Assembly: GCA_036504815.1 (NCBI GenBank)
Contig: DASXUN010000030.1
Span: forward strand, 62,001-126,000
Direction: 5' to 3'
DNA from: Gemmatimonadaceae bacterium
GTDB lineage: Bacteria > Gemmatimonadota > Gemmatimonadetes > Gemmatimonadales > Gemmatimonadaceae
Length of the DNA stretch: 64,000 bases
Below are positions 60,232-64,000 of the stretch, one piece after another. The notes beneath the pieces were generated by a model. The model searched no databases. It saw only the letters and a program-made list of their open reading frames with translations, and was not told where the DNA came from. Made by a program: the position numbers and the translations under genes. The first letter of the stretch is position 1, and each line of letters starts with the position of its first letter.

Positions 60232-62871
60232 ATGCGACAGATCATCGTAGGGCTCGCGCTTGCCACCGCCTTCCCCGTGGTCGCCGGCGCCCAGACCATC
60301 GCCCCCTTCGACCTCGGGCGATCACCCATCGCGCTCGGCGGCGACGCCCGCCCCGGACAATTCGTCAGCGCCGTCGGCCGACGCGCCATCGCGATGGGGA
60401 CCGAAGACGGCGCCTTCGAGCTGTGGAGCTGGCCGTACAAGTGGATGCACGACCTCAAGCTCAGCTTCCGCGTCCCCAAGTACACCCAGGCCATTCCCGG
60501 GCGCGACGTCGCGCGGTCGGTGCTGGTGCGCCCCGAAGGCGTGACCATCACGTACGCCTACGAGACGTTCACCGTGAAGCAGACGGTCTTCGCCTCCATC
60601 GACAAGCCGGCGGTGATGATGCTGCTGGAGGTGGACGCCATTCGCCCGATGGAGATCATCGCGTCGTTCGTCCCCGACTTGCATCTCGCCTGGCCGGCCT
60701 CGCTCGGCGGGCAGTACGTCGCGTGGCACGCGGGAGCCAAGGCCTTCGTGTTCAGCGAGAGCCGCCGCAAGGTGAGTGCCTTCCTCGGCTCGCCGGCGGT
60801 CACGCAGGCGAGCGACGTCCCGGCGCACATGCTCAGCGCCGCGCCGCCGCAGTTCACCATCGGCGTGGGCAGCGACAAGGAGCGCTACACCGAGCCGCGC
60901 CTCGGCGAACCGCCGGGGGGCAACGTCAACATCCACGCCAAGTACATCCCCATCGTGATGGCCGGCGGCGAGATGCCGCGTGATTCGGTGCTCGCGCTCT
61001 ATCGCTCGCTGCTGCAGCCGGGGGCCATCGAACGCGAGTGGAAGAAGCGCGTGGCACACGCCGACTCGATTCGCACGCAGCAGGTGTCGGTGAGCACGGG
61101 CGACGCCACGCTCGACCTGGCGGCCGAGTGGGCCAAGGTGAACCTCGACGAGTCGATGGTCTGCAACCCCGACCTCGGGTGCGGGCTCGTGGCGGGGTAC
61201 GGGCTATCGGGCGCCGCGAGCGACCGTCCCGGCTTCGGCTGGTTCTTCGGCGGCGACGCGTCCATCAACTCGTTCGCGATGAGCGCGGCGGGACAGCACG
61301 ACCTGGTGCGCGACGGCGCGCTCAAGTTCTTCGCCAAGTACCAGCGCGCCGACGGCAAGATCACCCACGAGATCTCGCAGGGGGCGGGGAAGATCGACTG
61401 GTTCGGCTCGTATGGCTACGCGTACTACCACGGCGACACCACCCCGTTCTGGATTCTGGCCTTTGGCGAGTACTGGAAGCAGACCGCCGACACGGCCACC
61501 GTGCGTGCGCTCTGGCCGAAGGTGAAGAAGGCCTACGAGTGGTCGCGCAAGTGCGACACCGACGGCGACGGGCTGATGGAGAACACCTGCGCCGGCGCCG
61601 GCGCGCTCGAGGTGGGCGACCTGCAGGAGGGGATCGTCAGCGACGTCTACCTGAACGGCGTGTGGGCGGCGTCCCTGGAGCGGTTCGCGCGCATGGCCGA
61701 GGCGATGGGCGAGACGGCCCTGGCGGCCGAGGCGCGGGCCGAGCGGGTGCGCGCCGTCGCGGCGCTCGACGGCAAGCTCTGGATTCCGGCCAAGGGACAG
61801 TATGCCTTTGCCGTGCTCGAGCAGGGGAAGATCAACGAGACGATGACGGCCTGGCCGGCGACGGCGATGGCGTTTGACGTGTTCGGCAAGACCAACGGCC
61901 GGCTGATGGCCGAGCGCATGGCGCGCAGCGACCTCACCACCGACTGGGGGGTGCGCCCGCTCTCGACGACCAGCCGACTGTTCGACCCGCTGCACTACAA
62001 CAACGGCGCCGTCTGGCCGTTCGTGACCGGCTGGGTGGCGACCGCGCAGTTCCGCTATGGCAATCCGCAGGCGGGGTGGCAGGCGCTGCGGGCAATCGCC
62101 GGCACGACCTTCGATGAGGCACGCGGCCGGAACCCCGAGGTGATCAGCGGCCGCGTGTACAAGCCGCTCGACACCGCGGTGCCGCAGCAGTTCTTCGCGA
62201 CGTCGATGATCCTGACACCGCTGCTCCGGGGGCTGATGGGTCTCGAGGTGGATGCGCCGGCGAACACGCTGACGGTGGCGCCGTGGGTGCCGCCCGGCCA
62301 CGAACAGGTGCGCGTGGAGAAATTGGCGGTCGGCGGGGTGCGACTGGACCTGTCGGTCACCGATATGGCGCAGCAACCGGAGCGGGTGTTGCTCGTTGCT
62401 CCGAGCGCGGGCGTCACGCTCTCGCGGCCGCTCAAGGTCCGCTTTGCACCGCCCGGCGGCGGCGTTGCCGAGGGGGTGCTGGCGCCGGGTGCCCGGTCAT
62501 TGCGCCTGGCGCTGGCCAGGGCGCGCGAGTGGAGCGTGATGCTGGCCGATGCCCGGCCGGCCGTGATCGGCGAGCGGTCGAAGAATCCACGGATCGTGGC
62601 CGCGCAAGCCGACGGCGCGGGGTACCGTGTGACGGTCGAGGCGTTGGCCGGCAGCATCGTCGCACTCTGGGTGCAGCCCCCGGCGTCCCGCTCGTTCGAG
62701 GCGGAGGGCGCCGGGGTTCGCGTGCGCAACATCCCCGCCGACTTCGCTGTCGTCGACTCACCGCTCAAGCGATTCGCCGCCCATGCAGCGCCTGCGGAGA
62801 TCACCATGCCCGCGAGCGGCGAGGATGCGGACGGATATGTGAGGAGGGAGGTAGTGTTTAGGGCCAGGTAA
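60232..62871 (+). CDS. Exported glycoside hydrolase with alpha/alpha toroid (amylo-glucosidase-like)
   Basis: An 879-residue protein with a signal peptide (ending near A-G-A-Q). The N-terminal part is a beta-sandwich (to about 280); residues 290-680 form an (alpha/alpha)6 toroid seen in glucoamylases and debranching enzymes: F-G-W-F-F-G-G-D-A near 335, K-I-T-H-E-I near 380, W-F-G-S-Y-G-Y-A-Y-Y near 393, C-D-T-D-G-D-G-L-M-E-N near 440 and N-N-G-A-V-W-P-F near 582, in which acidic residues are candidates for acid/base roles. A C-terminal beta domain follows. Substrate likely an alpha-glucan or glycan; not proven. The gene follows the deacetylase by 71 bases. Confidence 0.85.
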   Translation: MRQIIVGLALATAFPVVAGAQTIAPFDLGRSPIALGGDARPGQFVSAVGRRAIAMGTEDGAFELWSWPYKWMHDLKLSFRVPKYTQAIPGRDVARSVLVRPEGVTITYAYETFTVKQTVFASIDKPAVMMLLEVDAIRPMEIIASFVPDLHLAWPASLGGQYVAWHAGAKAFVFSESRRKVSAFLGSPAVTQASDVPAHMLSAAPPQFTIGVGSDKERYTEPRLGEPPGGNVNIHAKYIPIVMAGGEMPRDSVLALYRSLLQPGAIEREWKKRVAHADSIRTQQVSVSTGDATLDLAAEWAKVNLDESMVCNPDLGCGLVAGYGLSGAASDRPGFGWFFGGDASINSFAMSAAGQHDLVRDGALKFFAKYQRADGKITHEISQGAGKIDWFGSYGYAYYHGDTTPFWILAFGEYWKQTADTATVRALWPKVKKAYEWSRKCDTDGDGLMENTCAGAGALEVGDLQEGIVSDVYLNGVWAASLERFARMAEAMGETALAAEARAERVRAVAALDGKLWIPAKGQYAFAVLEQGKINETMTAWPATAMAFDVFGKTNGRLMAERMARSDLTTDWGVRPLSTTSRLFDPLHYNNGAVWPFVTGWVATAQFRYGNPQAGWQALRAIAGTTFDEARGRNPEVISGRVYKPLDTAVPQQFFATSMILTPLLRGLMGLEVDAPANTLTVAPWVPPGHEQVRVEKLAVGGVRLDLSVTDMAQQPERVLLVAPSAGVTLSRPLKVRFAPPGGGVAEGVLAPGARSLRLALARAREWSVMLADARPAVIGERSKNPRIVAAQADGAGYRVTVEALAGSIVALWVQPPASRSFEAEGAGVRVRNIPADFAVVDSPLKRFAAHAAPAEITMPASGEDADGYVRREVVFRAR

Positions 62872-62872
62872 G

Positions 62873-62980
62873 AGAGACAACAGCGAGAAAACAGAAAGAA
62901 AACAGAGAGACAACAGGACGGCGCTCGCGCGCATCTGTTGTCTCTCTGTTTTCTCTCGGTTGTCTTTCTGTTGTTTCTCT
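62873..62980. repeat. Word-repeat inverted element A
   Basis: Begins two bases after the glycosidase stop. The left arm (62873-62916) is built of A/G/C words such as ACAACAG and AGAGAGA; the right arm (62935-62980) is its T/C counterpart. The innermost 20 bases (62897-62916 with 62935-62954) pair perfectly; the outer parts pair with mismatches. The loop is a GC-rich 18 bases. The same words form element B 950 bases away. It may serve as a terminator. Confidence 0.7.
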
Positions 62981-62991
62981 GCCCTTAACGA

Positions 62992-63100
62992 GTCGCGGTA
63001 GGTCAGCGGTTGACGAGCCAGTGACGGCCCCCCGGCGCACTGTACGCGCCCCCCGCTGTGCCTACCGCGACACGCTGGGTCGCTCGAGGCGACCCTGCGT
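62992..63100. other. Strongly structured intergenic segment, candidate RNA element
   Basis: Two stems follow one another. The first has 62992-63002 paired with 63061-63071 (11 base pairs, perfect) and 63004-63009 with 63053-63058 (6 base pairs), with bulges of one and two bases; its 43-base loop can form an inner CAGTG/CACTG stem. The second has 63072-63075 with 63097-63100 and 63077-63083 with 63089-63095 around a five-base loop. No protein frame explains this. It could be a small RNA, an mRNA leader or DNA structure. Confidence 0.5.
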
Positions 63101-63211
63101 TACCTGCTATGTTTGTCTCCGGTGCGGCGCCGCGATCGTTCAGCGCGCTCCCGGTCGCAGAGGGAATGTCTAATTCGGGGCATCGTCGCGGAATGGGGTG
63201 CAATTATGGAA

Positions 63212-63238
63212 GTTTTGTGAGGCAATTCCTCACGAAAC
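63212..63238. promoter_or_regulatory. Operator-like dyad upstream of dinB-family gene
   Basis: Eleven-base arms 63212-63222 and 63228-63238 (GTTTTGTGAGG and CCTCACGAAAC) are inverted with one mismatch and five bases between. They lie over and next to the expected -35 region of the promoter at 63249. Such a symmetrical site fits binding of a dimeric regulator. Confidence 0.5.
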
Positions 63239-63248
63239 CCTTACACCC

Positions 63249-63254
63249 TAGATT
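63249..63254 (+). promoter_or_regulatory. Candidate -10 box for the dinB-family gene
   Basis: TAGATT at 63249-63254, 35 bases before the ATG; a ribosome site AAGGGGG lies between, so a leader of about 28 bases is expected. Confidence 0.5.
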
Positions 63255-63289
63255 CACTCCGGAAAGTGGAATTCCAAAGGGGGATTTAG

Positions 63290-63820
63290 ATGAGCATCGC
63301 CGCGACCATGCGCCCAGGCGCTGATGAGTTTGCCCCATTCTACGCGGGATACGTCGCCGCCGTCCCCGATGGCGACATCTCGCGGACGCTTGCGCAGCAG
63401 GGGGAGGACATGCTCTCCCGCCTCAAAGGGCTCAGCGAGGCGCAGGCCGCGCACGCGTACGCCCCGGGGAAGTGGACGGTGAAGGAAGTCGTCTGCCACA
63501 TCTCCGACGCCGAGCGGATCTTCGCGTATCGCCTGCTGCGCATCGCCCGCGGCGATGCCACGCCGCTCGCGCCCTTCGACGAAGACGCCTATGCCGCGCA
63601 CTGCGAGGCCAACGACCGCACGCTCGACACGCTCCTTGGCGAGTTCGCCGCCGTGCGCGGCGCTTCGCTGGCCCTGCTGCGGTGGCTCCCCGAAGCCGCC
63701 TGGACACGGCGCGGGACCGCGAGCGGCAAGGAGATCAGCGTCCGCGCCCTGGCGTGGATCATGACCGGACACGCCCTGCACCACGTGTCGGTGCTCAAAG
63801 ACAGATACGGGGTGGCCTGA
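63290..63820 (+). CDS. DinB family protein
   Basis: A 176-residue four-helix-bundle protein of the DinB/YfiT group. The metal-binding His triad is visible: V-C-H-I-S-D-A-E-R near residue 65 and H-A-L-H-H near 160-164, the usual spacing. Members include bacillithiol and mycothiol transferases and proteins induced by DNA damage; the exact reaction is not shown. The ATG is preceded at good distance by AAGGGGG. The gene has its own promoter and a dyad site, and is bracketed by two related hairpin elements. Confidence 0.85.
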   Translation: MSIAATMRPGADEFAPFYAGYVAAVPDGDISRTLAQQGEDMLSRLKGLSEAQAAHAYAPGKWTVKEVVCHISDAERIFAYRLLRIARGDATPLAPFDEDAYAAHCEANDRTLDTLLGEFAAVRGASLALLRWLPEAAWTRRGTASGKEISVRALAWIMTGHALHHVSVLKDRYGVA

Positions 63821-63936
63821 GAGAGACAACAGAGAGACAACAGAAGAACAACAGAGAAAAAACAGAGGTGCCCACGTTGAATCGGGCACCTCTGTTGTCT
63901 TTCGGTTGTCTCTCTGTTGTTTGTCTGTTGTTTCTC
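63821..63936. repeat. Word-repeat inverted element B with terminator core
   Basis: Starts right after the dinB-family stop. The core is a perfect 13-base-pair stem (63861-63873 with 63884-63896) with a 10-base loop, like a terminator. It is extended outwards on the left by A-rich words (ACAACAGAGAGA) and on the right by their T-rich counterparts, with imperfect pairing. It lies between convergent genes and reaches the stop codon of the minus-strand gene, so it may act on both strands. Confidence 0.75.
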
Positions 63937-64000
63937 TAGATGTGAATCGCTCGCCCCAGCGCCGCCAACGCCGCTTCCTTCACCGTCTCGCCGAGCGTCG
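63936..64000 (-). CDS. C-terminal end of a minus-strand gene, unidentified
   Basis: The last 20 or so codons of a gene that continues past the right edge. Reading from the edge, the tail is Thr-Leu-Gly-Glu-Thr-Val-Lys-Glu then an Ala/Leu-rich helix and a Gly-Arg-Ala-Ile-His-Ile end, stopping at TAG 63938-63936. The clean codon use with GC third positions suggests a real protein. I do not recognise the family from this piece. Confidence 0.4.
   Translation of the reverse strand, partial: TLGETVKEAALAALGRAIHI

Follow-up and report, generated by a model that had tools for sequence, protein, structure and literature searches.

The untranslated regions of bacterial genes are usually thought to follow no common sequence plan. 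Dispersed intergenic heptanucleotide repeats are found in cyanobacteria, where they are referred to as STRR or long simple sequence repeats. In Xanthomonas and Nostoc, intergenic tandem arrays of the heptamers GGGAATC and GGGGA(C/T)T have been described, whose purine-rich strand lies on the sense side up to 50 bp after stop codons and on the antisense side before start codons (PMC4692102). Those arrays overlap stop codons, prefer four units and mostly keep their single or paired state between species; about 70 inverted pairs per genome are formed by the Xanthomonas GGGAATC repeat, whose four-unit preference has been linked to the four G-tracts of a G-quadruplex (PMC4692102). The GGGAATC arrays are the nearest described case to the elements reported here. 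More distant are the TAACTGA direct repeats of Beggiatoaceae, Cyanobacteria and Bacteroidetes, which are a single fixed, stop-codon-bearing heptamer located mostly just 5' of start codons (PMC4679880), and the A-enriched, fast-evolving tandem repeats of archaeal Borg elements, some of which start at the end of an ORF (PMC9879509).

Two inverted elements beside a DinB-family gene

The stretch analysed here, a 64,000-nt part of a Gemmatimonadaceae genome (the window), carries the following features at its right end.

60232-62871, plus strand: glycoside-hydrolase-like gene (MGH1-like/GH116 domain; PF22422, E 2.3e-13; PF04685, E 2.7e-10)
62871-62916, plus strand: left array of element E1, four 11-nt AGAGAGACAAC-type units (TRF period 11, 4.2 copies)
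62917-62934, no strand: tip of E1, GC-rich, separating the arms
62935-62981, minus strand: right array of E1, four units in minus-strand sense
62985-63101, minus strand: conserved structured RNA, its strand assigned from the array at the RNA 3' end
63290-63820, plus strand: DinB_2-family gene (DinB/mycothiol-transferase superfamily; PF12867, E 8.5e-23)
63820-63867, plus strand: left array of element E2, four 11-nt units
63867-63890, no strand: tip of E2, a terminator-like GC-rich hairpin GGTGCCC...GGGCACC
63890-63937, minus strand: right array of E2, four units in minus-strand sense
63936-64000, minus strand: 3' end of a dihydrolipoamide-dehydrogenase-like (lpd-like) gene that extends past the window

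Both E1 (62871-62981) and E2 (63820-63937) are composed of four AGAGAGACAAC units, a GC-rich tip and four reverse-complement units, each arm holding 4.2 to 4.4 tandem copies of the 11-nt unit. They lie, as an earlier note on this DNA had described, directly after the stop codons at 62871 and 63820. Hereby, the TAA of ORF 60232-62871 supplies the first A of the E1 left array, whose purine strand points away from the stop codon, and the first unit of the E2 left array begins with the A of the TGA of ORF 63290-63820. The right array of E1 points away from the 3' end of the conserved structured RNA, while that of E2 begins with the TAG that ends the convergent lpd-like gene (63936-63938), to which it is fused; the earlier picture is thus to be corrected in that E2 adjoins a gene on both sides. 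The two elements had also been said to be built of the same words. They do have words in common, yet the unit variants differ between the arms and between the elements, and E1 and E2 are not copies of each other.

Allowing up to three mismatches, CAGAGAGACAACAG matches the window 18 times, with 16 of the matches inside the E1 and E2 arrays, compared to 3.55 expected and a maximum of 8 in 100 shuffles. Both elements fold far more stably than shuffled sequence, the two strands reaching -72.4 (z -10.7) and -73.1 kcal/mol (z -10.6), values equalled by no shuffle. Since matches and folds exceed those of shuffled sequence and further copies occur in the genome and the genus, chance low complexity was rejected as the source of the elements. 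An assembly artefact was likewise rejected, because arrays are found at the same sites in MAGs of independent projects. Four contigs of the window's genome, G000 (C1, C10, C14 and C15), end in or near arrays, so that assemblies break at these elements. A comparison of the elements with Rfam returned only weak microRNA-hairpin matches, all below gathering, which arise from the long-stem shape.

A GC-rich stem after the gene end, as expected of an intrinsic terminator, is present in the E2 tip (GGTGCCC/GGGCACC) and 35-60 nt from the stop codon at many 3' arrays; in E2 it is followed by TCTGTTGTCTTTC, which is U-rich and interrupted. With a GC hairpin, an A-rich 5' flank and a U-rich 3' flank the elements resemble the bidirectional intrinsic terminators of convergent genes, but their flanks are 44-nt word arrays, which also occur singly and at start codons.

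The order glycoside hydrolase gene, E1, non-coding RNA, dinB, E2, lpd is conserved locally within the genus. Orthologs of the DinB protein show 68-81% identity in eight other genomes of the genus. The lpd-like gene, whose family was named from its GGTCVNVGCIPSKALL motif, encodes 475 aa at full length in a second locus (L221:4437-5864). In the structured RNA, 95 of 119 aligned columns are invariant across nine species; it is limited to the genus except for one weak 28-nt match in another family, and no Rfam family reaches the gathering score for it. A dyad, TTTTGTGAGGCAATTCCTCACGAAA, at 63213-63237 on the 5' side of dinB is largely kept in nine species and looks like a repressor operator.

A genus-wide population at gene borders

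The search for further copies proposed in the earlier note revealed a genome-wide population. Neither of the refuting outcomes named there, a lack of other copies or absence from relatives, occurred. In the window's genome (3.5 Mb), an 18-mer of the arrays has 119 + 138 matches with up to two mismatches. A scan of 395 Gemmatimonadota genomes gave matches in 8 of the 10 from the same genus and in 0 of the 385 others, and a scan of the genus found the 18-mer in 9 of 11 genomes. The matching relatives are MAGs, e.g. Gemmatimonas sp. PR.004 and Gemmatimonadetes from groundwater and lakes. One MAG labelled Acidobacteria from the same groundwater project (L134, JACQZV010000023.1) has an 11-mer array as well and is probably misnamed or mis-binned. 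A literature search for such arrays in Gemmatimonadota found nothing relevant.

For quantification, 42 stretches of the window's genome were used together with 120 loci of relatives, the latter of up to 8 kb, and genes were called with a simple codon-usage finder; the MAGs are fragmentary, with contigs often ending in arrays. In 163 loci (1.32 Mb searched) 258 11-mer arrays were found, comprising 61 facing pairs and 136 singles; as the relatives' loci had been picked for carrying the 11-mer, class proportions are biased toward it and these rates are not genome-wide. The word consensus is common to scores of loci per genome and to several species. Four units are the sharp mode (160 of the 258), and longer arrays of 8-16 units are present in some genomes.

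Begin positions are concentrated at stop codons: 155 of the 258 arrays start between -3 and +13 nt from one, with peaks at -2, -1, 0 and +4. A further nine lie 3-8 nt after tRNA 3' ends, and 39, in the opposite sense, precede a start codon by 0-25 nt. At offset -2 the stop codon is always TAG and at offset -1 it is TAA or TGA; in both cases it is itself the first bases of the array. Stop-codon usage beside arrays (TAG 77, TAA 49, TGA 27) differs from that of other genes (213, 75 and 322; chi2 p 6e-16). The host genes are diverse (glycoside hydrolase, lpd, ribE and nagB-like genes, tRNAs) and the junctions convergent, tandem or divergent. The start-codon cases in several species concern ribE, one CaiB-like and one nagB-like gene, all three named by sequence resemblance; a divergent pair is also among these cases. 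At four loci (L217, L214, L049 and L126) arrays of tandem junctions lie upstream of genes whose MKNFLK- or MRQFLN-like starts resemble those of prepilins.

The earlier view of a terminator family after stop codons thus holds for the larger part, given the stop-codon arrays and the many among them that lead to a GC-rich hairpin. A 4-nt SD match is seen in 0 of 25 array-led genes compared to 199 of 786 others (p 0.001). One could accordingly imagine a translational device, in which CU-rich, SD-less leaders precede the starts and A-rich words after the stops protect the mRNA end, both polarities being consistent in the RNA sense (pyrimidine leader, purine trailer). Since some arrays come after tRNAs or a non-coding RNA, and the majority are situated 3' of genes, we consider such a device quite improbable.

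Orientation, arm matching and conserved length

In 49 of 58 7-mer, 19 of 19 10-mer and 157 of 172 11-mer arrays, the strand rich in purines points away from the gene border, so that neighbouring genes have facing arrays. When words of low purine skew are excluded, 101 of 117 neighbouring pairs of all word classes are facing and 16 show other orders (7, 7 and 2); facing and back-to-back pairs stand at 101 versus 2. Both arms carry the same word class in 82 of the 101 facing pairs, compared to 55.5 ± 3.8 expected and at most 71 in 5000 shuffles, and they share word variants beyond the class (p 0.002, 7- and 11-mers). The longest perfect complementary run between arms is 25.5 nt versus 23.9 nt when shuffled, a value reached in 0 of 100 shuffles. 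For 11-mer arms, the mean duplex energy equals that of shuffled arms, strict stem covariation was not found, and the unit-by-unit register is not above shuffled.

Mixed pairs of 7- and 11-mer words make up 16 of the 101. Such junctions, with the 11-mer on one side and the 7-mer on the other, recur across species beside apparently the same flanking genes (L197, L091, L145 and L155; L120, L144, L216 and L118), and hence a border can have had its word class for a long time.

At the dinB site, the layout gene, array, hairpin, array, gene is found for both elements in seven of nine species, with changed words. The 11-mer is present in G000 and G031, AGAACGACAG (10 nt) in G301 and G230, and AGAAAAAGCAG or AGAGAAAGCAG in G174 and G222, with an 8-mer at E1 of G230; in G395 and G114 the arrays are nearly or fully missing. 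An unbiased survey of 20-kb stretches from members of the genus likewise showed arrays of 7-, 8- and 10-mers at gene borders. Orthologous sites may thus carry words of 7, 8, 10 or 11 nt, while position and total length (about 43-50 nt) are retained. Median lengths of border arrays are 43 nt (about 6 units) for 7-mers, 50 nt (about 5 units) for 10-mers and 48 nt (about 4.4 units) for 11-mers, and the middle half of the 11-mer arrays spans 47-58 nt. Length rather than unit count is therefore similar across word classes, and four units as a general rule fails for the 7-mers, whose mode is 5-6.

Spacer lengths agree with this. Counted by hand, the stop-to-start distance between ribD and ribE amounts to 47, 55, 56, 60 and 68 nt for the five species whose spacer carries 11-mer arrays; two array-less species have 52 and 54 nt, and one species, G301, has a longer spacer. 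At E2, G395 has an array-less spacer of the same length and G114 a short gap of 17 nt. As the ribD-ribE spacers are alike with or without arrays, the arrays seem to replace sequence within a gap of set length rather than to add to it, though the G114 case indicates that such gaps may also be short. The change of the word between species, while place, length and layout stay, points to a maintained separation of genes and not to a moving cassette.

The earlier note had considered a cassette that moved as a unit, a suggestion that is contradicted by copies at many different genes, their mostly single state and the conserved local gene order. More generally, a cassette, a MITE or an element of the REP/RAYT type with the arrays as its inverted ends could provide many dispersed copies and a genus-specific dialect, and identical 44-mers are shared between loci slightly above expectation (22 pairs versus 12.3, p 0.04), making block copying of whole arrays weak at best. 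Against mobility stand the majority of single arrays, the fixed positions relative to stop codons, which are common to orthologs, and the array-less spacers of equal length, by which no clean insertion is seen, although the 17-nt gap of G114 departs from this. The Y1 (RAYT) transposase (PF01797) occurs in only 2 of 11 genomes and is absent from G000; a REP/RAYT system was rejected because the transposase is missing from 9 of 11 genomes. Altogether, mobility appears to us the least probable origin, and a very improbable one.

Compared to the Xanthomonas and Nostoc arrays, those of this genus share the outward purine strand near or over stop codons and, with Xanthomonas, the inverted intergenic pairs. 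Four units are the mode of the 11-mers and not of the 7-mers. The E1 and E2 unit has 11 nt, unlike the heptamers, although the genome also has heptamer arrays at other places, and words of 7, 8, 10 and 11 nt coexist, with length and not unit count being similar. Neither AGAGAGACAAC nor its main variants contain GG, so that a G-quadruplex is impossible for the 11-mer word and cannot explain its arrays. Like the TAACTGA repeats, they are short words in tandem, scattered over many gene borders that frequently lack SD sites; the words used here are different and mostly follow stops, and facing pairs such as ours are not reported in the part of that study considered here (PMC4679880). Borg repeats are perfect, lie in ORFs for about half and are extrachromosomal, whereas the arrays here are imperfect, chromosomal and bound to gene borders (PMC9879509). 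The cyanobacterial STRR resemble the arrays here in that heptanucleotide repeats are scattered between genes; the 10- and 11-nt words, the outward polarity and the words common to both arms are results obtained for the present arrays.

A DNA- or RNA-binding protein with sequence specificity, recognising about four successive words and co-evolving with them as dialects, would account for one consensus over scores of loci and across species, for the sharp four-unit mode of the 11-mers and for an arm pairing energy no higher than shuffled. However, a single genome holds unrelated words of 7, 10 and 11 nt, and the 7/11 mixes occur even within one junction, which makes it hard to fit one protein to all of them, and the 7-mers have about six units, not four. 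We therefore regard this as unlikely.

Growth by slippage, as proposed in the earlier note, is compatible with the change of word and word length, but the total stays at about 43-50 nt and the arms share words, for which slippage by itself gives no account. The arrays might then be tolerated, functionless by-products of slippage and template switching that expanded in unconstrained untranslated sequence up to a functional border. Words that vary by site and species, the arrays of 8-16 units and the retention of the same genes in a few array-less species would fit such an origin, hairpin-templated repair would yield the homogenisation of arms, and an excess of heptamers is a known slippage-like feature of prokaryotes (PMC4679880). 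Slippage alone, however, predicts no single polarity and explains neither the tight length nor the shift in stop codons, and the arrays persist where proteins have diverged to 68-81% identity. This neutral origin with homogenisation is the main rival of the insulating spacer set out below; we judge it possible, though rather doubtful.

A proposed role in spacing, termination and insulation

Strong hairpins in the 110 nt after stop codons are found for 58% of genes with and 57% of genes without arrays, and within this distance hairpins are neither more frequent nor stronger after arrays. What differs is their position: hairpins below -18 kcal lie 35-60 nt from the stop codon with 3' arrays and are evenly spread without, and at 3' arrays the strongest hairpin, if any, begins at the array end. 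The gap between facing arms is GC-rich with a median of 26 nt in convergent regions and has a median of 74 nt in divergent ones (p 0.02 for convergent versus tandem plus divergent), with 64-117 nt in five of six divergent regions. This suggests that arrays reach from the coding end to the terminator, and from the promoter to the start codon. In divergent gaps between facing 7-mer arrays a symmetric AATATATT box is seen (L063:627-711, L221:8117-8234 and L263:6619-6717), a possible -10 element shared by both directions.

The explanation we prefer, tentatively and with slightly less than even confidence, is that the arrays are length-set spacers in untranslated regions between coding sequence and terminator or promoter, and that facing arms pair in read-through transcripts and so insulate neighbours. 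Each array would keep a stretch of set length free of structure, separating the coding region from the terminator or promoter. A transcript crossing the entire intergenic gap would contain a purine array followed by the complementary pyrimidine array, which could base-pair on either side of the GC hairpin, forming a 45-50 bp stem, and act as a two-way terminator or insulator separating the neighbouring genes, while a transcript begun within the gap would have one arm only and escape. With an A/G-rich 5' arm and a U/C-rich 3' arm, the polarity is that required by an intrinsic terminator in both directions. Word identity could drift freely, with slippage homogenising the units and hairpin-templated copying the arms.

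Several observations count against this explanation. Among them are the 11-mer duplex energy at the level of shuffled arms, the missing covariation of unit register and the equal hairpin frequency with and without arrays. Singles outnumber facing pairs, though some of them face an array of another class; about 11 tandem junctions are filled by an array in the pyrimidine sense, where termination is impossible; and the pyrimidine arm is U-rich in 10- and 11-mers only, that of the 7-mers being C-rich. Single and tandem-junction arrays thus fit the insulating spacer poorly.

A broader proposal, which we put forward as speculative and regard as rather unlikely, is that some maintained process writes a species-specific word over untranslated gene ends up to a set length, keeping polarity and arm matching. 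It would be active in this genus, in Xanthomonas and in Nostoc, hence in three or more distant groups, and be unrelated to G-quadruplexes, the words being interchangeable and the facing, length-set layout being selected. Irrespective of this proposal, scores of unrelated genes in one genome have the same outward-reading words in their untranslated regions, and relatives keep the plan while changing the word. A Xanthomonas-like layout with words unable to form G-quadruplexes means that the explanation given for Xanthomonas needs re-examination. Words of four lengths (7, 8, 10 and 11 nt), in part at the same orthologous site, amount to a natural replacement experiment on whether word, length or pairing matters.

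Most other genera that were sampled have no arrays. Two other genera of the family have heptamer arrays of AGCCAAT, GTGACTA and CAGAATT (L251 and L283-L285 in G047; L252 and L294 in G048), several of them as inverted pairs, and in G047 the purine polarity appears reversed.
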